From Candidatus Nitrospira nitrosa (GTDB lineage: Bacteria; Nitrospirota; Nitrospiria; Nitrospirales; Nitrospiraceae), in assembly GCF_001458735.1 (NCBI RefSeq), contig NZ_CZQA01000001.1, positions 1,426,001 to 1,490,000 on the forward strand: 64,000 nucleotides of DNA. The letters are read 5' to 3'. The notes below the pieces were generated by a model, which was given only the letters and a program-made list of their open reading frames with translations, searched no databases and had not been told where the DNA came from. How positions within the stretch are numbered: the first letter of the stretch is position 1; every line of letters starts with the position of its first letter. The position numbers were made by a program, and so were the translations under genes. This document shows positions 9,140-29,318 of the stretch, piece after piece.

Positions 9140-11131
9140 ATGTCTGGTAGCTGGGCATGCTGGTTCTGGACGTTGGTGGGAGCGGGATGCCTTGGGTGGG
9201 GGGTCAAGGGCATGGTGCTGGGGTCAGTGATGGATGAGAAGCGGCGTGAGGTGGAACGCCTCAAGAGTAAGGTCACGATGCTGACCAATCAACCCCCGGA
9301 GGTACGAACAGTCGAGAAGCGGGTGGAGGTACCAGTCGATCGCGTAGTGGTGAAGCATGTTGAGGTGCCAGTCGAGAAGATTATTGAGAAGCGAGTAGAG
9401 GTGCCGATTGAAAAGACCGTGGAGAAGATCGTGGATCGCCCGGTTGATAACCAGGAGTATCTCGTCCGGATCAAGGCGTTGGAAGGCGAGGTTGCCATGA
9501 TTGCCGGGCTGCTCCCTCAGATTGCGCAGTTCCAAACCGTTGCGTCGCAGGTTGGGGGGAGGAGCGTCGAAGGGCGGGTGGTGGTGCCGGTCGACAATCC
9601 GGAGCACCTGGCCCGGATCAAGGCGGTGGAAGAAGAAATAGTCGTCATTGCTGGATTCCTGGCACAGATCGCGCAGGCACAAACCGCTTCTTCGCAGGCA
9701 GGAGTGAAGAGTATCGAAGAGCGGGTGGTGGTGCCGGCCGATAATCCGGAGCACCTGGCCCGGATCAAGGCGCTCGAAGGCGAAGTGGCCGTCATCGCCG
9801 ATCTTCGTTCGCAGATGGCGGAGCTTCGGGACCTGTTGTTGCAGGTCGGTGAGAAGGTTGCCAAGAAGCCTCTGGAGACTCCCGTAGAACAACATATGGA
9901 GACACCGCCCGCGCAGGTGAGTGAACGGGCAGTGGAATGCAACCAAGCCAGTGTCAGTGAGCAGAGGGCTGAGCGCGAAGCAGATGAAGTGTCGCCTGAT
10001 GATCTGAAACACATCCGGGGGATTGGGCCGGCGTTAGAACGGTTCCTCAACAAACGGGGCGTCTTCTGGTTCCGGCAGGTGGCGACCTGGAGCCCAGCAG
10101 ATATCGACAAATTCGAATTCCTCCTGCCCAACTTTGGGGGGAGGATCCAACGGGAACACTGGGTGCGCAGCGCACAGGTCGAGCACTACAAGAAGTATCA
10201 GGAATGGCTCGGCGACGGTGAGCCGCCGAGAGAGAGCCTCGACCTTCCAGGGCAGATGACCGAGATCCACGCTGTATCTTTACAGAATGAGGTCAAAGTT
10301 GCTGAGACTTCCACCGAGGAGATTGCCCTAAAGAATAGAGCTGTGGTGGATGAAGCGATCAGCGAACCAGCGGGCGCCTTGGACCAGGCCGGTGCCGCTG
10401 AGTCGGTGGCTGAGGGAGAAGCAGATAAAGCGTCGCCTGATGATCTGAAACACATCCGAGGGATTGGGCCGGCGTTAGAGCGCTTCCTCCATAAACGGGG
10501 CGTCTTCTGGTTCCGGCAGGTGGCGACCTGGAGCCCAGCAGATATCGACAAATTCGAATTCCTCTTGCCCAACTTTGGGGGGCGGATCCAACGGGAACAC
10601 TGGATGCGCAGTGCACAGGTCGAGCACTACAAGAAGTATCAGGAATGGCTCGGCGACGGTGAGCCGCCGAGAGAGAGCCTCGACCTTCCTAGGCAGATGG
10701 CTGAGCCCCAAGCCGCATCTCCCCAGGCTGAGAATCAGAGTATAGAGATGATGGGGATCGAGACTCCTATGGAACAGAATGGGGTGGTGCCAACCGCTCA
10801 GGTCAATGAGCACGCATTAGATCGCGACCATGCAGGTGCGCAGGTGGATGGGGGCCAAGCGGTAGGAGAGTCGTCCGATGACCTGAAGCGAATCTACGGA
10901 GTGGGGCCAGGGTTAGAACGGTTTCTCCACAAACGGGGCGTCTTCTGGTTCAGCCAGGTGGCGACATGGAAGCAGACAGACATCGAAAAATTCGAGTTTC
11001 TCTTACCGAACTTTGAAGGTCGGATCCAACGGGAAAACTGGGTGCGTAGCGCAAAGGTCGAGCACTACAAGAAGTACAAACAGTGGCTTGGCGACGATCA
11101 GCCCCCAAGTACCACGCCGGAGACACACTAG
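9140..11131 (+). CDS. Large membrane-anchored protein with three helix-hairpin-helix-like domains
   Basis: A 663-aa protein. It has one N-terminal membrane segment (~5-28), a Val-Glu-Lys-Pro-rich stretch (~52-105, units like KRVEVPVEK), and three copies of a predicted coiled-coil unit around NPEHLARIKALEGEVAVIA (~110-235). Three copies of an ~85-aa domain follow (~285-370, 431-517, 578-655). Each domain begins DDLKHIRGIGPALERFL, a helix-hairpin-helix-like G-I-G-P motif found in COG3743-type proteins (predicted 5' nuclease-like). Each then continues with WSPADIDKFEFLLPNFGGRI. No nuclease active site is evident to me. The anchor and repeats suggest a scaffold or binding role in the envelope, but function is unknown. 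Copies 1 and 2 are almost identical in DNA. Confidence 0.8.
   Translation: MSGSWACWFWTLVGAGCLGWGVKGMVLGSVMDEKRREVERLKSKVTMLTNQPPEVRTVEKRVEVPVDRVVVKHVEVPVEKIIEKRVEVPIEKTVEKIVDRPVDNQEYLVRIKALEGEVAMIAGLLPQIAQFQTVASQVGGRSVEGRVVVPVDNPEHLARIKAVEEEIVVIAGFLAQIAQAQTASSQAGVKSIEERVVVPADNPEHLARIKALEGEVAVIADLRSQMAELRDLLLQVGEKVAKKPLETPVEQHMETPPAQVSERAVECNQASVSEQRAEREADEVSPDDLKHIRGIGPALERFLNKRGVFWFRQVATWSPADIDKFEFLLPNFGGRIQREHWVRSAQVEHYKKYQEWLGDGEPPRESLDLPGQMTEIHAVSLQNEVKVAETSTEEIALKNRAVVDEAISEPAGALDQAGAAESVAEGEADKASPDDLKHIRGIGPALERFLHKRGVFWFRQVATWSPADIDKFEFLLPNFGGRIQREHWMRSAQVEHYKKYQEWLGDGEPPRESLDLPRQMAEPQAASPQAENQSIEMMGIETPMEQNGVVPTAQVNEHALDRDHAGAQVDGGQAVGESSDDLKRIYGVGPGLERFLHKRGVFWFSQVATWKQTDIEKFEFLLPNFEGRIQRENWVRSAKVEHYKKYKQWLGDDQPPSTTPETH
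9991..10248 (+). repeat. Intragenic tandem-domain repeat, copy 1
   Basis: A 258-bp block encoding the first helix-hairpin-helix-like domain. The same block recurs exactly 441 bp downstream with about ten mismatches, many of them silent. Such identity points to recent duplication or gene conversion. Confidence 0.9.
10432..10689 (+). repeat. Intragenic tandem-domain repeat, copy 2
   Basis: Second copy of the 258-bp block at 9991-10248, roughly 96% identical by eye. A third, clearly diverged copy of the same domain lies at about 10871-11105. Confidence 0.9.
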
Positions 11132-11429: not shown

Positions 11430-12152
11430 ATGAAATTTGTCTGCTTGAACTGTGAAACATATATGAGCCTCGAGAAGGTGGAGAAGCCGGAGGAGGGTTC
11501 CCTTGGCGTTTTCTTTGCCTGCCCTTCTTGCAGCGCGAAATTCTCAATGGTGACGAATGCCGGTGAAACGAACATGATGAATTCGTTGGGCCTCAAGCTA
11601 GGGGCCAAGGCGGAGCCGGCGGCATCGATGGCAGGGTTGAGGGCCGTAGCCGAAAACGGTCAATCTGCTGCCGCGACAAAGCCGAGTCCTGCTGCACCAG
11701 CCGTCGCGGCAACCGCGGCGTCGCCTGCTAAGGCTCCAGAGAAGGCGAGCGGCTGTCCATTCTCCGCGATGGTGGCGGAAATGGGCCTGACCAACTCCGG
11801 TAAGCCAGCCAACGGCGGGCCTTCTGAGTTCACGTGGACTCCAGATGCCCAAGAGAAGCTTGATCGGCTTCCAGCCTTTGTGAAGCCGATGGTGCAAGCG
11901 AGTGTGGAGGGCTATGCCCGCAAGAGCGGCTTCAAGACCATCACGCTACAAGTGATGGATGACTCGAAGAATTATTCCCCTGAGGGTATGACCTGGTCAC
12001 GCGAAGCCGAGCAGCGGTTGGAAAATATTCCTGACTTCATTCGTCCTATGGCCCGCAAAGAGGTGGAGCGGATGGCCAAGGAACGTGGGGAATCCACCAT
12101 CACGGCCCAGGTGATGGAGGAAGCCAAAGATAAGTTCATGAAATTCATGTAA
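11430..12152 (+). CDS. Zinc-ribbon protein with two PCP_red domains
   Basis: A 240-aa protein. Cys5, Cys8, Cys31 and Cys34 form an N-terminal zinc ribbon. An Ala-Pro-rich linker (~65-105) follows. Two copies of the ~47-residue PCP_red domain (named from light-independent protochlorophyllide reductase) lie at ~134-180 and ~187-234. Each starts with an aromatic-Trp-Thr/Ser motif (FTWTPDAQEKLDRLPAFV; MTWSREAEQRLENIPDFI) and ends near ITxQVM. No chlorophyll biosynthesis genes are seen, so the domain must have another role here, perhaps binding a cofactor or protein; this is unknown. A perfect terminator hairpin follows. A related gene with four such domains lies at 26154. Confidence 0.8.
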   Translation: MKFVCLNCETYMSLEKVEKPEEGSLGVFFACPSCSAKFSMVTNAGETNMMNSLGLKLGAKAEPAASMAGLRAVAENGQSAAATKPSPAAPAVAATAASPAKAPEKASGCPFSAMVAEMGLTNSGKPANGGPSEFTWTPDAQEKLDRLPAFVKPMVQASVEGYARKSGFKTITLQVMDDSKNYSPEGMTWSREAEQRLENIPDFIRPMARKEVERMAKERGESTITAQVMEEAKDKFMKFM

Positions 12153-23148: not shown

Positions 23149-24864
23149 ATGGGTACGGTATCCAACAGTAGCGACGCGCAGTTAGACCGCAATGCCTTGG
23201 CGGCATTGTATGAAGAAACCTTTCGCAACTTGGAAGAAGGCACCATTACCGAAGGGCGTGTGGTGGCTCTGACCAAGGACAAGGTCATCGTTGATATCGG
23301 GTACAAGTCGGAAGGCATGATCCCAAACGATCAATTCTCGTCGGACGACTTGGCAAACCTCAAGATCGGGGATCGGCTCCAAGTTTATATCGAGGAATGT
23401 GAAGACGCAGACGGTAATCTCGTGCTTTCCAAAGAAAAAGCCGACAAGATGAAGATTTGGGAAGAGCTCGAGAAGATGTACAAGGACGAAAAAAGTATCG
23501 AAGGCAAGATCGTGTCTCGCATCAAAGGCGGGATGATGGTGGACATCGGCGTCAAAGCGTTTCTGCCAGGCTCGCAGATCGATCTTCATCCCGTGCGCGA
23601 TTTAGATGGACTGGTCGGAAAGACGTTCCCGCTCAAGATCATCAAGATCAATCACCGACGAGGGAACGTGGTGGTGTCGCGCCGTGTGTTGCTGGAAGAA
23701 ACGCGTGATAAGAAGCGGCAGACGACGTTGGCAAATCTCAAGGAAGGTCAGTTGATCCAAGGAACCGTGAAGAACATCACTGATTACGGATCATTTATTG
23801 ATCTCGGTGGGATCGACGGCTTGCTCCACATTACGGATATGTCGTGGGGGCGAGTTGGACATCCGTCGGAACTGTTTACTGTCGGCGACAAAGTGGAAGT
23901 GACGGTATTGAAGTACGATCGCGAGACCGGCCGTATTTCTCTGGGCCTTAAGCAAAAGAGCGCTGATCCCTGGACGAATGTTGCCGGTAAGTATCCCATC
24001 GGGACCAGAGTGCGTGGTCGGGTCGTGAGTTTGACTGATTACGGTGCATTTGTAGAGCTCGAACCAGGTGTGGAGGGGTTGGTGCACGTCTCCGAGATGT
24101 CGTGGACACATGAAGTCCGGCATCCGTCTCGCGTCGTGGCGGTTGGAGACCAAGTCGAAGCCGCCGTGCTCAATGTCGATCCGGCGAGCCGGAAGATCTC
24201 CTTGGGCATGAAACAGACTGCTCCGAATCCTTGGGATATGATCGAAGGAAAGTATCCGATCGGAACCCGCATCGAAGGGAAAGTGAAGAGTCTCACGGAT
24301 TTTGGAGTCTTTGTCGGACTGGAGGAAGGTATTGATGGGTTGATCCATATTTCCGATATGTCCTGGACGAAGCACATCAAACATCCTTCCGAACTCTTCA
24401 AGAAAGCGCAGAAGGTCGAGGCGATTGTCCTACGCATCGACAAGGAGAAGGAACGGCTCTCACTTGGCTATAAGCAGCTGACGCGTGATCCGTGGGACGA
24501 GGTGATCCCATCGAGGTATCATGTCGGCGACTCCGTGACGGGCAAGGTGTCGAAAGTCGCCGATTTCGGGGTTTTCGTTGAGCTTGACGGTGGTGTGGAA
24601 GGACTGATCCACGTCAGCGAATCAGGTCTGGATTCTTCCCAGAAGCTGGAAGAAAAGTTTAAGTTGCAGGAAGACCTGACGGCGAAGATAATCAAGGTCG
24701 ATCGGGAAGAACGCAAGATCGCACTCAGCCTTCGCGATCATCAAATGGATTGGGAGCGCAAGCAGGTGGACGACTATCACTCGTCGCAGGGCGCTATTGA
24801 TCAAACCCTCGGTCGAGCTGTCAAGCAGAGCCGGAAGCGCGCGCAGGCCGACGATCAAGAATAA
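23149..24864 (+). CDS. rpsA: 30S ribosomal protein S1
   Basis: A 571-aa ribosomal protein that binds mRNA during initiation. Six consecutive S1 (OB-fold) domains are visible, each with the pattern G-x-V-x2-(I/L)-x-D-(F/Y)-G-x-F-V. Examples are GTVKNITDYGSFIDLGGIDG, GRVVSLTDYGAFVELEPG and GKVKSLTDFGVFVGLEEG. The C-terminus is basic (KQSRKRAQADDQE). It follows the cmk-plsC pair by 55 bp and precedes sppA by 30 bp. Confidence 0.96.
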   Translation: MGTVSNSSDAQLDRNALAALYEETFRNLEEGTITEGRVVALTKDKVIVDIGYKSEGMIPNDQFSSDDLANLKIGDRLQVYIEECEDADGNLVLSKEKADKMKIWEELEKMYKDEKSIEGKIVSRIKGGMMVDIGVKAFLPGSQIDLHPVRDLDGLVGKTFPLKIIKINHRRGNVVVSRRVLLEETRDKKRQTTLANLKEGQLIQGTVKNITDYGSFIDLGGIDGLLHITDMSWGRVGHPSELFTVGDKVEVTVLKYDRETGRISLGLKQKSADPWTNVAGKYPIGTRVRGRVVSLTDYGAFVELEPGVEGLVHVSEMSWTHEVRHPSRVVAVGDQVEAAVLNVDPASRKISLGMKQTAPNPWDMIEGKYPIGTRIEGKVKSLTDFGVFVGLEEGIDGLIHISDMSWTKHIKHPSELFKKAQKVEAIVLRIDKEKERLSLGYKQLTRDPWDEVIPSRYHVGDSVTGKVSKVADFGVFVELDGGVEGLIHVSESGLDSSQKLEEKFKLQEDLTAKIIKVDREERKIALSLRDHQMDWERKQVDDYHSSQGAIDQTLGRAVKQSRKRAQADDQE

Positions 24865-24894: not shown

Positions 24895-25797
24895 ATGGCG
24901 GATGATGTGACACAGGACGTGCGCCCACCCAAACGCCATCTGTTTCGCAAAGTCATTTGGCTCTTTGTGGCAGGGGTGGGTGCAATGGTGCTGATGAATC
25001 TCCTCTATCCTGACCTTGACTTGTCAAGTGAGGATCGGATTGCCTTGATCCGTGTTGAAGGTGTCATCATGGATTCCCAAACGACCGTCGCGGAACTGAA
25101 ACGTTTCAGTGAAAGTCCCTCCATCAAAGCGATCGTCCTTCGGATTGATACGCCAGGGGGTGGTGTGGTGCCATCACAGGAAATCTATGATGCAGTCAAG
25201 CGAGTACGGAACAAGTCCAACAAGGCAGTGATTGCGTCAATGGGGAGTGTGGCGGCGTCAGGGGGGTATTATATTGCCGCGGCGACGGATCGGATCGTCG
25301 CGAATCCTGGGACCTTGACCGGAAGCATCGGTGTCATTATGGAAACCGCCAATGTGGAAGGGTTGCTTCAGAAAATCGGTGTGGAAGGGGTCGTCATCAA
25401 GAGTGGGAAGTTTAAGGATGTAGGGTCTCCACTTCGCAAGATGAGCTCCGAGGAGAGGGGCTTGCTCCAAGGGGTGATGGATGACGTCCATCGGCAATTT
25501 ATCGAAGCGGTGGCAGAAGGTCGATCGCTGGAATTGCGAACAGCTCAAGCTCTGGCGGACGGCCGAATCTTCACCGGTCGCCAGGCCAAAGAAGTGAAGT
25601 TGGTGGATGAACTCGGAGACCTGGACGATGCCATTCAATTGGCCGCAGATGTGGTAGGGATCCAGGGGGAGCCCAAGATCGTCGAACCACGCCGCCGTTT
25701 TTCTCTCCGTGAAATGCTGGACTCAAAGCTGAGCATGATGTTCCCCAAATTGGATATGCAGCCAGGTGTCAGCTTGAAATACTTGATGGCATTTTAG
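24895..25797 (+). CDS. sppA: Signal peptide peptidase SppA (S49 protease)
   Basis: A 300-aa inner-membrane serine protease that degrades cleaved signal peptides. One N-terminal membrane segment (~20-38) precedes the S49 domain. The serine motif is MGSVAASGGYYIA near residue 115, and the catalytic lysine is in KSGKFKDVGSPLR. It is the short single-domain bacterial form, not the ~600-aa E. coli form. Confidence 0.93.
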   Translation: MADDVTQDVRPPKRHLFRKVIWLFVAGVGAMVLMNLLYPDLDLSSEDRIALIRVEGVIMDSQTTVAELKRFSESPSIKAIVLRIDTPGGGVVPSQEIYDAVKRVRNKSNKAVIASMGSVAASGGYYIAAATDRIVANPGTLTGSIGVIMETANVEGLLQKIGVEGVVIKSGKFKDVGSPLRKMSSEERGLLQGVMDDVHRQFIEAVAEGRSLELRTAQALADGRIFTGRQAKEVKLVDELGDLDDAIQLAADVVGIQGEPKIVEPRRRFSLREMLDSKLSMMFPKLDMQPGVSLKYLMAF

Positions 25798-25842: not shown

Positions 25843-26121
25843 ATGACGAAAGCGCAAATTATCGAGAAAGTCTCCGAGCAAGTGACCACATTGACCAAGC
25901 GGCAGGCAGAAGTCGTGGTCAATACAATATTTGATTGCGTACGAGACTCCCTGAAAAATGGGGATAAGACGGAAATCCGAGGATTCGGCAGCTTTCGCTT
26001 GCGCGCTCGTCGTATGAAAGAAGGACGGAATCCCAAGACCGGGGAGACCGTCGCTGTTCCGGCCAAGCGGGTCCCGTTTTTCAAAGCCGGCAAAGAGATC
26101 AAAGAGTTACTTAATCAGTAG
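25843..26121 (+). CDS. HU/IHF-family DNA-bending protein
   Basis: A 92-aa histone-like protein. It opens with MTKAQIIEKVSEQV, and its DNA-binding arm region contains EIRGFGSFRLRARR and GRNPKTGE. GFGSF followed by RNPKTGE is shared by HU and IHF. The position downstream of rpsA and cmk is where IHF-beta (himD) lies in many genomes, so an IHF-like role is plausible. A good ribosome-binding site (GGAGGGAGAAGAG) precedes the ATG. Confidence 0.92.
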   Translation: MTKAQIIEKVSEQVTTLTKRQAEVVVNTIFDCVRDSLKNGDKTEIRGFGSFRLRARRMKEGRNPKTGETVAVPAKRVPFFKAGKEIKELLNQ

Positions 26122-26153: not shown

Positions 26154-27149
26154 ATGTCTGACCCATCCCAGTTTGCAGCGACGGATATCCGGTGGACTGC
26201 TGGCGCACTAAAGCGCATGGAACGTGCGCCGCTTTTCCTTCGTGGCATGGTCCGTCGGTTAGCCGAAAAAAAAGCCCTGGAATTGGGGTATGAAGAGATT
26301 ACAGAAGAGGTTCTCGAACGATTTAAGGGGCAGATGATGGGAGGAATGGGCGGTGAAGCCGGCATGACGGCGGCCGCTGAAGCGATGGAGCAAGGACGGC
26401 TCCCATGGACGGCTGCGGCAAAAGATCGGCTGGCCAACGTGCCGGGGTTCATGCAAGCCATGATCAAACAGATTGCGGAAGAGATCGCTAAGGAACGAGG
26501 CCATCTCGAGGTAAACGTCGAGTTGTTTGAAAAGGTTGAGGCACTCGGTGATATCCGCGAAGACGAGAAACCTTCGATGGAGTGGACGGAGGACGCCTTG
26601 GCGTTGCTTCAAGATAAACTTAAAGAGTCCCCACCCATCGCTGTAGACTTCGTAGCGGATATGCTGAAGCGGGATACCGAAGACTTGGCCAGGGAGAAAC
26701 ATCTGACGCGTATTGATGGATCAGCGCTACGGGAAATCTGGGATACCCCTGAGGCCAAAATCAGCTGGACGGACGACGCCTGGAAACGGCTTCAGACATC
26801 TCCTGACTTTGTCCGAAGTGGAATCAGAAAAGCCGCGGAGCGGAGGGCTCGTAAGCTCGGATTGAAAGAGATCGATTCTGATCATTTGACGACATTTCGA
26901 AATCAGGCCATGATGAAAGCGGTCAAACGCATTCGGTCATTCGGCTATCAAGAATTGACATTCGACGCCTTTGAGACGGCGCTCAAGAAGACCAAGCGTT
27001 TGCAGAGCAATGATCAGGCAGAGAAGCGTTTGCGGGAGATCCGCGGCCATTTTGCCGACCCAACAACCAAGAAGCCTGAAGGTGGGACGCTGGGAGCTGA
27101 GCTTATGGATCGTTTTCGGAAATATCTCAAGGGGGAAGGCACGCTCTAG
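26154..27149 (+). CDS. Protein with four PCP_red-type domains
   Basis: A 331-aa protein made almost entirely of four diverged PCP_red-like units. They begin at IRWTAGALKRMERAP (~9), LPWTAAAKDRLANVP (~82), MEWTEDALALLQDK (~142) and ISWTDDAWKRLQTSP (~202). Each has the (hydrophobic)-x-W-T-x2-A signature and a downstream A-x4-A-x4-G helix. No signal peptide or metal-binding cysteines are present, so it is probably cytoplasmic. It follows the HU/IHF gene by 32 bp. Function is unknown; the domain is named from protochlorophyllide reductase, which is irrelevant here unless the organism makes related tetrapyrroles. Confidence 0.78.
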   Translation: MSDPSQFAATDIRWTAGALKRMERAPLFLRGMVRRLAEKKALELGYEEITEEVLERFKGQMMGGMGGEAGMTAAAEAMEQGRLPWTAAAKDRLANVPGFMQAMIKQIAEEIAKERGHLEVNVELFEKVEALGDIREDEKPSMEWTEDALALLQDKLKESPPIAVDFVADMLKRDTEDLAREKHLTRIDGSALREIWDTPEAKISWTDDAWKRLQTSPDFVRSGIRKAAERRARKLGLKEIDSDHLTTFRNQAMMKAVKRIRSFGYQELTFDAFETALKKTKRLQSNDQAEKRLREIRGHFADPTTKKPEGGTLGAELMDRFRKYLKGEGTL

Positions 27150-27508: not shown

Positions 27509-27829
27509 CTAGTGTGCCGCCATTTCCTGGGGCCAAAACTTATGACGGATTTGGGGAAGCGGCTCATTGTCAAAGTTCGGGATGTCGTAGAGACATCGGT
27601 CGATAGTTGCCACTTCGTCTTCGGTTAACGGTACGCTGACCTTCTTTTTCCAGAATTGGTCAAGCGTGAAATAGTCCCCAGATTGTGGCTTCTGGGCCAA
27701 CAGCTCCTGCATCTTCTTGAAACCTGCCGTATCGACGCCGGGAACACGCCCCTTGTTTCGATCAAGGCACCAGTTCAGCACTTCAGCAATTCCATACATC
27801 GTGATATCAACATTCACCATCTTGCTCAT
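27509..27829 (-). CDS. Hypothetical protein, 106 aa
   Basis: A soluble 106-aa protein of unknown family, starting MSKMVNVDITMYGIAEVLNW and rich in charged residues, with no signal peptide or membrane segment. A strong GGAGG precedes the ATG, and a hairpin follows the stop, so the gene looks intact and expressed. No catalytic motif was recognised. Confidence 0.65.
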   Translation of the reverse strand: MSKMVNVDITMYGIAEVLNWCLDRNKGRVPGVDTAGFKKMQELLAQKPQSGDYFTLDQFWKKKVSVPLTEDEVATIDRCLYDIPNFDNEPLPQIRHKFWPQEMAAH

Positions 27830-28133
27830 AGCAATCCTCCAAAGAATATTCTTAGATCATAACGTAACTAGCTGCACAAATTCAAAGGCTGACGATAGGG
27901 CATTGTAGATTGCGGGTCCAAATAGGGCATCTGTATACTGAGTCATCTGGCAGGGGCGTCTGGTGGTCAACCAGGTTTTTAGCATGTCTTTCAGGGGGCA
28001 CCAACCTTCGGTGACTCTGCTAGAAGTAGCAAAATCAGTTCAAACGCTTGATGGCGAGAGAATCAACGTCGAGTGTGGCCAGCACACCTGGCGGATGAGA
28101 AGGGTCTGATTGAGGAGATATCAGGCAGTCTGC
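27830..28133. other. Divergent intergenic region
   Basis: About 300 bp between the minus-strand 106-aa gene and the FG-GAP lipoprotein gene. It should hold both promoters. I see no repeat or small gene. Confidence 0.35.
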
Positions 28134-29318
28134 ATGAATCTGATGTGTCGTTTGAGTAAGTTTATCTGCAGCGGGGTGGGACTCTACGTCCTCATGGCGA
28201 TCGGTTTGTGGGGCTGTTCCAAGGCGGAGCCTTATCTCCCACCTGATCCGTTTTACTATTTTGCGAGTTACCCCGTAGGCAAGAACCCAACAACGATTAC
28301 GACCGGTGATCTCAATCACGACTCGTTTACCGATCTGATCACGACGAATATTTCGAGCAATTCCGTTTCCATTCTATTCGGTAACGGCGACGGCACATTC
28401 AAAGACCAAATACAGGTTCATGTGTGCCAGGAACCACGCGCTCTTGTCATGAATGACTTTAATGAAGACGGGCAGGCGGATGTCGTTTTAGCGTGCTCGG
28501 GTGGAGATGAAGTTGAGCTACTGCTTGGCCGCGGGAACGGAAAATTTGAAGAAGGAGCCCGGTATCCGGTCCATCGCAGCCCGGTGTCACTGGCGGCAGA
28601 AGACGTGAACGGCGATCATCATGTCGATCTTGCCGTGGCCCTTCGAAACGACAAGGTGAAAGTGTTTCTTGGAAATGGAAAGGGCGAATTGCGACATGGA
28701 GCGCAATATGAGCATGGAGATACTCCAACCTCCGTGGCTCTATCCGATCTCAACGGCGATGGCAAGATCGATCTCGTGGTCACCAACGGGGGGCCGATGT
28801 CCAATGCGGTATCCGTCTGGCTTGGGAACGGAAATGGGACGTTTCGAGACCCCAAGGACTATTCCACTGGCAGACGGCCGTTGGGGGTGAGTTTTGGAGA
28901 TTTCAATAACGATCACAATAGCGATCTGCTGGTCATCAATGGAGAGCAGGATAGCTTCACGACCTTTTTGGGAAATGGGAATGCGACGTTTCGGCCAGGG
29001 AAGGATGCCGGTGCGGATGCCGGTCCAAATTTTGGTCTTGCCAGGGATTTCAACGGTGATCAGCTGGTCGATGTAGCAATCGTGAATATCCAGTCGAACG
29101 ATTTGTCGATTCTATTCGGGAAAGGCGATGGAACCTTTCACTATCCCCCGAGAAACTATCGGACGAAGTACGGTCCGTTTGCCCTCTGTTCGTTCCATGT
29201 CACCACGTCAGGAAGCGAGGAACCTGGGCTCGCCATTGCAGACAATGGAAGCGGCAGCGTGTCCATCTTTCTTCATCGTGGGCTCAAGTCCATCGCTCGA
29301 TCCGATCCCAAGGGGTGA
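28134..29318 (+). CDS. FG-GAP/VCBS repeat lipoprotein
   Basis: A 394-aa exported protein. The lipoprotein signal ends at the lipobox IGLWGC, so it is probably attached to a membrane. The rest is about seven FG-GAP/VCBS beta-propeller repeats. Each has a calcium-type loop such as GDLNHDSFTDL, NDFNEDGQADV or SDLNGDGKIDL and a following ILFGNGDGTF-like motif. Such propellers bind calcium and mediate binding to ligands or surfaces. ATG 28134 is chosen over a TTG at 28110. It stands alone, so its partner is unknown. Confidence 0.85.
   Translation: MNLMCRLSKFICSGVGLYVLMAIGLWGCSKAEPYLPPDPFYYFASYPVGKNPTTITTGDLNHDSFTDLITTNISSNSVSILFGNGDGTFKDQIQVHVCQEPRALVMNDFNEDGQADVVLACSGGDEVELLLGRGNGKFEEGARYPVHRSPVSLAAEDVNGDHHVDLAVALRNDKVKVFLGNGKGELRHGAQYEHGDTPTSVALSDLNGDGKIDLVVTNGGPMSNAVSVWLGNGNGTFRDPKDYSTGRRPLGVSFGDFNNDHNSDLLVINGEQDSFTTFLGNGNATFRPGKDAGADAGPNFGLARDFNGDQLVDVAIVNIQSNDLSILFGKGDGTFHYPPRNYRTKYGPFALCSFHVTTSGSEEPGLAIADNGSGSVSIFLHRGLKSIARSDPKG

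Follow-up and report, generated by a model that had tools for sequence, protein, structure and literature searches.

A four-domain PCP_red protein of Nitrospirota as a likely non-catalytic scaffold of a radical SAM/Usp module, with a possible role in heme-cofactor maturation

The PCP_red domain (PF08369) owes its name to an enzyme of chlorophyll synthesis, DPOR, to which it is almost confined in the PDB and where it occupies the end of the nitrogenase-like subunit BchB/ChlB (2kru, 2ynm, 2xdq, 3aek). A free-standing PCP_red protein has been solved from Nostoc (Asr4154; 2l09), as a 62-residue chain with one domain. The open literature that we searched yielded neither text on the role of PCP_red inside DPOR nor a paper on Asr4154. 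Two further known families bear on the system described here: AhbD and NirJ2, whose family models score best against its radical SAM enzyme, and the coproheme decarboxylase/chlorite dismutase family (PF06778), fused behind PCP_red in three genomes. The domain is already known; no paper on a PCP_red system of Nitrospirota was found in the one library of open papers searched, and the word protochlorophyllide is absent from the main text of PMC6606698.

We analysed a 64,000-nt stretch of the 4.42-Mb genome of Candidatus Nitrospira nitrosa (contig C1, bases 1426001-1490000; hereafter the window), which encodes a protein with four PCP_red units that we call PCP4 (Table 1). In Pfam searches PCP4 matched PCP_red at 154.5 bits (E = 6.9e-46) in four stretches, bearing out the domain identity and the four tandem copies proposed in an earlier note on this DNA; scored singly, domains 1, 2 and 4 lie above the PF08369 gathering cut-off of 32.5 bits and domain 3 lies below it. 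The proposal that the domains make up nearly the whole protein is right in part, as residues 250-331 form a further helical tail. PCP4 carries no enzyme domain and no Pfam domain other than PCP_red above its cut-off. It is thus free-standing like Asr4154 but has four domains rather than one, and it differs from BchB in having four copies and no catalytic domain. We rejected PCP4 as a BchB/ChlB subunit: TIGR01278 gives 76.9 bits against a cut-off of 490.35, with the best stretch at positions 454-509 of 512. The gene starts with ATG, 32 bases past the end (26121) of the preceding HU ORF, and promoter and terminator scans around it returned about as many hits as shuffled sequence (1 vs 1.2 and 2 vs 2.1, respectively).

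Table 1. Coordinates of PCP4, its domains and flanking genes, with the other PCP_red genes of the genome and related fusions; positions refer to the window unless a locus is given.
Feature	Position	Strand	Evidence and remarks
PCP4, four-domain PCP_red protein	26154..27149	+	ORF; PF08369 154.5 bits; 331 aa, no cysteine; four PCP_red
PCP_red domain 1	26193..26327	+	51.1 bits, genome profile search
PCP_red domain 2	26406..26534	+	51.5 bits; contains His117
PCP_red domain 3, diverged	26583..26729	+	25.0 bits, under the 32.5 cut-off
PCP_red domain 4, best-conserved repeat	26766..26891	+	50.2 bits; mean identity 0.83 vs 37 relatives
PCP4 C-terminal helical tail, residues 250-331	26901..27146	+	first 27 residues highly conserved
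HU/IHF-family DNA-binding protein gene	25843..26121	+	PF00216 105.1 bits; synteny in order
SppA-type S49 peptidase gene, upstream, order-level block	24895..25797	+	PF01343 173.2 bits; synteny
rpsA-type gene, six S1 domains, upstream, order-level block	23149..24864	+	PF00575 325.8 bits; synteny
PCP2, N-terminal CxxC..CxxC segment and two PCP_red	11430..12152	+	ORF; 113.4 bits
PCP2 PCP_red domains	11835-11966 and 11994-12128	+	profile search
163-residue protein, own genome	contig C8		two PCP_red
rSAM_PCP, own genome			459-residue rSAM/SPASM protein, one PCP_red
Usp_PCP, own genome			688 residues, two Usp domains, three PCP_red, rubredoxin-like segment
PCP_red + decarboxylase-family fusion ORFs	L097:5552-6679, L098:6036-7061, L099:6083-7117		one family of the phylum

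A test HMM built solely from the eight PCP_red copies of the other four genes in this genome recognised PCP4 at 96.1 bits, compared with a maximum of 8.0 bits among the shuffled sequences (123/500 reported), arguing against a different helical family without a shared profile. Domain 3 is weak against this HMM too (6.3 bits, E = 0.27). In an alignment of 38 sequences (the PCP4 of the window and 37 relatives), its W144 and P160 are kept in 38/38, and we therefore regard the third repeat as a true, diverged copy. The Trp that starts each repeat is found in 37, 38, 38 and 38 of the 38 sequences for domains 1-4, the missing one being a row trimmed at that point, and the repeat Pro in 38/38 for each of the four. 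Mean cross-species identity of the repeats (0.68, 0.69, 0.56 and 0.83) exceeds the identity between repeats inside PCP4 (0.27-0.40), indicating that the duplication is old and that each position has been kept for itself. Domain 4 is the most conserved part together with the initial 27 residues of the tail (0.81), and His117 in domain 2 is kept in 37/38 sequences. The gene is under purifying selection, with pN/pS of 0.11-0.23 against five relatives and dN/dS of 0.08 against the nearest one, the others being at or past silent-site saturation. Cysteine is absent from 32/38 aligned sequences and occurs once in each of the remaining six, so that we do not expect Fe-S or zinc sites of the usual kind; we rejected PCP4 as a rubredoxin, zinc or Fe-S protein on the same ground.

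An AlphaFold2 model of the tandem array, of middling quality (pLDDT 70.2, pTM 0.50), predicts a repeated unit of strand, short helix, Pro, long helix, Gly, strand and helix. The top Foldseek match of this model was 2kru (probability 1.00, rmsd 1.0 over 52 columns, E = 0.029), which VIA aligned at Z 8.5 with an rmsd of 3.6 over 60 residues; chain D of 2ynm aligned at Z 6.6 (rmsd 1.4 over 50, 34% identity). By profile and by predicted fold, then, PCP4 and BchB/ChlB share the same domain.

Across the whole genome we counted 12 PCP_red domains, 11 of them above the cut-off, in five genes (Table 1). The six copies in 15 kb remarked on earlier are indeed there, four in PCP4 and two in PCP2, but they are insufficient by themselves to indicate an expansion at this place, since among five genes placed at random some pair comes to lie within 15.7 kb with a chance of ~0.07. 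Four of the five genes lie inside 75 kb, which five random genes did in 35/400,000 trials of a test picked after the data had been seen. All of the 39 genomes searched around the order (this one included) match PCP_red: 25 hold exactly 12 domains, three hold 11, one holds 14, and ten hold 3-10. Of these ten, two genomes are incomplete (G015, G020) and eight belong to families f2 and f4. With 11-12 domains in 28/39 genomes, the expansion is ancient rather than local. The idea of an expanded and selected family therefore stands as far as multiple copies and purifying selection go, while a local expansion is not implied.

Matches to PCP4 itself that span 318 or more of the 331 residues were found in 73/77 genomes of the order; of the exceptions, one match covers residues 113-330 at a contig edge (G032) and three are weak or partial (G025, G026, G096). 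In the phylum, 80/148 genomes carry PCP_red, including all nine listed members of the class outside the order (3-13 domains), and among 14 control genomes Synechococcus elongatus alone matched. These counts do not use regular-expression motif flags, which missed some PCP_red domains detected by Pfam.

The gene directly before PCP4 encodes an HU protein in 19/20 loci of the order (exception, L089), and one explanation would be that PCP4 associates with DNA or the nucleoid and acts together with HU. The modelled repeat also resembles the AAA+ lid domains of RuvB and RuvBL (Z 6.3-7.3, rmsd 1.6-4.2) and, weakly, histone folds; by the tool's own caution, however, Z scores of this size are common among helical units, and we rejected DNA binding by fold for this reason. 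Moreover, PCP4 is not basic (58 K+R, 58 D+E, pI 6.97), it gives no PF00216 match at E up to 1, and outside the order HU is not its neighbour, its place often being taken by Usp and rSAM genes. The HU/IHF adjacency pointed out in the earlier note is thus sound as order-level synteny but does not extend to the outside relatives; we rejected an HU partnership as the main reading, and a nucleoid role seems highly improbable.

Several other genes recur in these surroundings. A 106-residue protein without a Pfam match (window 27509-27829, minus strand) and an FG-GAP repeat protein (28110-29318, plus strand; 155.5 bits) were found near PCP4 in 6/6 loci (L071-L076), and an FG-GAP homologue likewise adjoins PCP4 in L100, outside this set. 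Elsewhere in the window, a 663-residue ORF (9140-11131) contains three similar repeats of ~80 residues, with weak helix-hairpin-helix matches (29.6 bits vs 27). Relatives of PCP2 adjoin a gene for an Mrp/NUBPL Fe-S carrier ATPase in five loci (L100, L109, L146, L180, L190), all except L109 with a heme-oxygenase-like gene nearby. In a Mariprofundaceae MAG (L170), a protein with a PCP4-like end (50% identity) is encoded beside a DUF420 gene, in the company of genes that resemble, by reading alone, those of cytochrome c maturation.

Outside the order, in other families of the class, PCP4 is found with a different set of genes. Three loci (L091, L092, L093) share the gene row Usp_PCP, rSAM_PCP, PCP4 and a CopD-like gene, and Usp, rSAM, PCP4 and CopD-like genes also stand together in the complete chromosome of a Candidatus Manganitrophus (L115); the CopD-like label is weak (31.6 bits vs 32.1 in L115). 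A longer row in L100, on partly opposite strands, reads Usp_PCP, rSAM_PCP, CopD-like, FG-GAP, PCP4, heme-oxygenase-like, PCP2 and Mrp/NUBPL. We then scanned named genomes with the C-terminal module of PCP4, domain 4 plus the tail, and analysed the flanks of the best 80 of 234 relatives, some of which are short and at least 9/80 of which come from records that are also in the other locus set. HU and sppA flank the module in 31 of these, Usp and/or rSAM genes in 23, and only other genes of the set in two (a bd-like gene in L111; PCP2, Mrp and heme-oxygenase-like genes in L146); none of the probes was found in 24, of which 15 are from Nitrospinota. One Nitrospinota relative (L123) has 276 residues with three PCP_red stretches (104.6 bits), and for this type of protein the fetched flanks held no Usp or rSAM gene. 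In the 23 Usp/rSAM loci the module lies within the Usp ORF in seven and within the rSAM ORF in one, with PCP4 separate in 15.

The fusions themselves join PCP4 to the same two partners. In five loci (L108, L112, L113, L117, L119), as judged from Pfam, alignment and motif, a Usp protein with two PCP_red stretches ends in the PCP4 module, and L102 and L116 (the latter a partial ORF) resemble these. The C-terminal module of PCP4, domain 4 plus tail, is the piece that is fused to Usp elsewhere. In two other loci rSAM_PCP and the PCP4 array form one ORF, of 706 residues in L110 and 730 in L182, in which the enzyme's own PCP_red takes the place of domain 1, ahead of domains 2-4 and the tail; three PCP_red stretches are reported by Pfam in each. 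These two are sister sequences in the tree, and the rSAM-PCP4 fusion may therefore be one event. Modelling of the L182 fusion (pLDDT 77.6, pTM 0.56) does not fix the placement of PCP_red on the enzyme. As one piece is fused to two different partners, both of which are also its neighbours, a joint function is likely, and we consider PCP4 probably a member of a radical SAM/Usp module. That it serves there as a non-enzymatic scaffold is likewise probable, given that Pfam finds no enzyme domain in it and that cysteine is absent from 32/38 sequences.

The enzyme of this module, rSAM_PCP, has a SPASM domain and one C-terminal PCP_red. Its top family models are NirJ2 (TIGR04055, 321.8 bits) and AhbD (TIGR04545, 315.1-315.9 bits), both with cut-offs of 500; it thus differs from these families in falling under their cut-offs, in its extra PCP_red domain and in its position in the tree. 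The tree, built from 23 sequences, splits into one side with the 19 PCP_red radical SAM proteins (100/100) and another with three AhbD or AhbD-like rows and a second protein of G102 (100/100). At least nine genomes hold an AhbD or AhbD-like protein (424-522 bits) alongside an rSAM_PCP-type match (280-344 bits). Together with the PF06778 (HemQ/Cld-family) proteins found in 59/148 genomes of the phylum (this one included; three of them as PCP_red fusions), the score and the tree led us to reject rSAM_PCP as a canonical AhbD heme synthase; the score and the separate clade also count against a heme reading of the module.

Among solved structures, sequence comparison places PqqE nearest to rSAM_PCP, and fold comparison adds SuiB, SkfB and anSME to PqqE. 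Since these include peptide maturases, the strongest rival explanation is a system for peptide or protein modification, in which a peptide would be the substrate of the SPASM enzyme, with the PCP_red units serving as its recognition and docking elements; the structures point to a peptide as much as to a tetrapyrrole, and the SPASM domain fits as well. However, NirJ2 and AhbD rank first among the family models, well ahead of the best peptide-maturase models among those listed, WgkB (147 bits), mycofactocin (131) and PqqE (106), an argument limited by TIGR04053 at 268.5 bits, and a peptide substrate would leave the links to HemY and to the decarboxylase family, described below, unexplained. We hold this explanation to be unlikely.

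These links are among the grounds for considering a tetrapyrrole substrate. In L110 the gene next after the rSAM-PCP4 fusion encodes a protoporphyrinogen oxidase (TIGR00562, 290.7 bits; cut-off 97.85), and the gene after the fusion in L182 is 72% identical to it. In three genomes (G105, G120, G125), PCP_red precedes a domain of the chlorite dismutase/coproheme decarboxylase family (PF06778; 60.0, 69.2 and 65.8 bits), and this fused copy is the genome's only PCP_red domain; no such domain was seen attached to PCP4. For the fusion in L098 the best solved matches are coproheme decarboxylases (E = 9e-10). The fused domains score far under the HemQ model cut-off (56.2 and 51.5 vs 235), and on our reading of the alignment the one in L098 seems to lack what we take to be the usual heme-ligating His, which speaks against a heme reading.

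The heme genes of the genome itself also bear on the question. HemE-, HemH- and HemY-type genes stand in a row (461.5, 266.1 and 308 bits), and there are two PF06778 proteins, the better one at 133 bits against the HemQ model cut-off of 235. There is one HemN_C match, which its model identifies as HemW (257.5 bits, cut-off 205.4) and which lies under the HemN cut-off (149.1 vs 324.95). Given these HemE-, HemH-, HemY- and HemQ/Cld-family genes, ordinary heme synthesis is probably independent of the PCP_red module, which weakens the case for heme in general; if the heme reading is right, a special tetrapyrrole, or its delivery, would be the more likely task. PF06778 and TIGR04545 matches above 400 bits are both missing from some PCP_red genomes, including G102, G104, G107, G111, G154 and G161. 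We do not claim from this that the PCP_red module replaces HemQ.

A quinone product is another conceivable task. After rSAM_PCP and Usp_PCP, this genome carries an slr0320-like radical SAM gene (L009:10675-12300; 444.7 bits, cut-off 775) and a gene for the methyl-plastoquinone methyltransferase MpqE (L009:12310-13122; 402.5 bits, cut-off 335), and methyl-plastoquinones are used by Nitrospira (PMC12324825). MpqE scores above its cut-off in 64/80 PCP_red genomes as compared with 3/68 without PCP_red. However, the overlap is partial, as 16/80 PCP_red genomes have no MpqE above the cut-off, including five of the families f13 and f17 with 3-8 PCP_red domains each, and both traits may simply track the same lineages. 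We rejected a tie to methyl-plastoquinone on account of this partial overlap and regard such a role of the module as quite improbable.

The second partner, the Usp protein, could point instead to a system against oxygen or redox stress, in which Usp, rubredoxin-like and PCP_red units would sense or repair and PCP4 would act as a stress adaptor. Besides its Usp domains, Usp_PCP contains a rubredoxin-like segment, just below the cut-off in this genome (25.4 vs 26.5 bits) and above it in L091 (44.8), and genes for ODP-family metallo-beta-lactamases lie near the Usp gene in two genomes distant from each other (L009:13230-14012 and L102:8658-9449; 243.5 and 218.9 bits). This would leave unexplained the radical SAM enzyme, its fusion, and the links to HemY and the decarboxylase family; in addition, a Usp protein without PCP_red (L207) also pairs with rSAM_PCP. 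We judge a stress system improbable.

Where the enzyme occurs with little other PCP_red, its neighbours suggest a possible target. Seven genomes outside the class (G140, G145, G150, G173, G179, G194, G196) have rSAM_PCP and 1-2 PCP_red domains, and in all except G179 a Usp-like gene stands beside it (by Pfam in L207, by reading in the rest). A gene for subunit I of a bd-like oxidase lies within two genes of the enzyme in G150, G194 and G196 (50.6, 56.4 and 50.8 bits), so that bd-like genes adjoin the enzyme in 3/7 of these loci (L207-L212, L223); their absence at the other 4/7 counts against a heme reading. By locus, bd-like subunit I genes near PCP_red genes were found by Pfam in L113, L208, L209 and L211 and by tblastn in L107 and L182. 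In the genome studied here, the PCP_red gene on contig C8 adjoins a DUF420 gene (66.8 bits) and is separated by one gene from a bd-like subunit (69.3 bits). The bd-like oxidases of these bacteria lack the quinol-binding residues of canonical bd, and their role has been called enigmatic (PMC3578206; also PMC6606698).

Taken as a whole, these observations lead us to favour, tentatively and at somewhat less than even odds, a model in which PCP4 is the non-catalytic scaffold of a PCP_red module for the maturation of heme cofactors. Its core would consist of two proteins: the SPASM radical SAM enzyme rSAM_PCP, whose clade neighbours AhbD and whose C-terminus bears a single PCP_red domain, and a Usp protein, which in this class also bears PCP_red and rubredoxin-like domains. 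With four linked PCP_red units and a conserved tail, PCP4 would provide a docking and substrate-handling platform for these partners: as units of the same kind occur on the enzyme, on the Usp protein and on PCP2, the array may gather either the partners or a flat hydrophobic substrate. Binding by PCP4 is putative, and its structure model is of middling quality. The module may then make, modify or deliver a heme-type tetrapyrrole for the respiratory chain, with bd-like oxidases as the putative destination. That its substrate is of the heme type is a possibility that we hold with some reserve, suggested by the occurrence of PCP_red in DPOR, by the family to which rSAM_PCP belongs, by the neighbouring HemY-type gene and by the fusion to a decarboxylase-family domain. 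The possible single origin of the two rSAM-PCP4 fusions counts against the model as a whole.

A bolder version, which we consider speculative and rather improbable, is that nitrite and manganese oxidisers of the Nitrospirota possess a dedicated PCP_red machine, unrelated to photosynthesis, that makes or installs a non-standard heme for bd-like oxidases. The AhbD-like radical SAM enzyme, the stress-family protein and the four-unit PCP_red scaffold would cooperate in this, and the heme might be of chlorin type, as the chemistry of DPOR would suggest. If this were true, PCP_red would be a general tetrapyrrole-handling domain, common to DPOR, this system and the decarboxylase-family fusion.

A domain named for chlorophyll synthesis is thus present in all 39 genomes searched around one order of nitrifiers, and its fusions name its partners. 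A module for heme cofactors beside bd-like oxidases would make the enigmatic role of these oxidases directly accessible to genetics and chemistry; it would also point to a function of PCP_red that is general and extends to DPOR.
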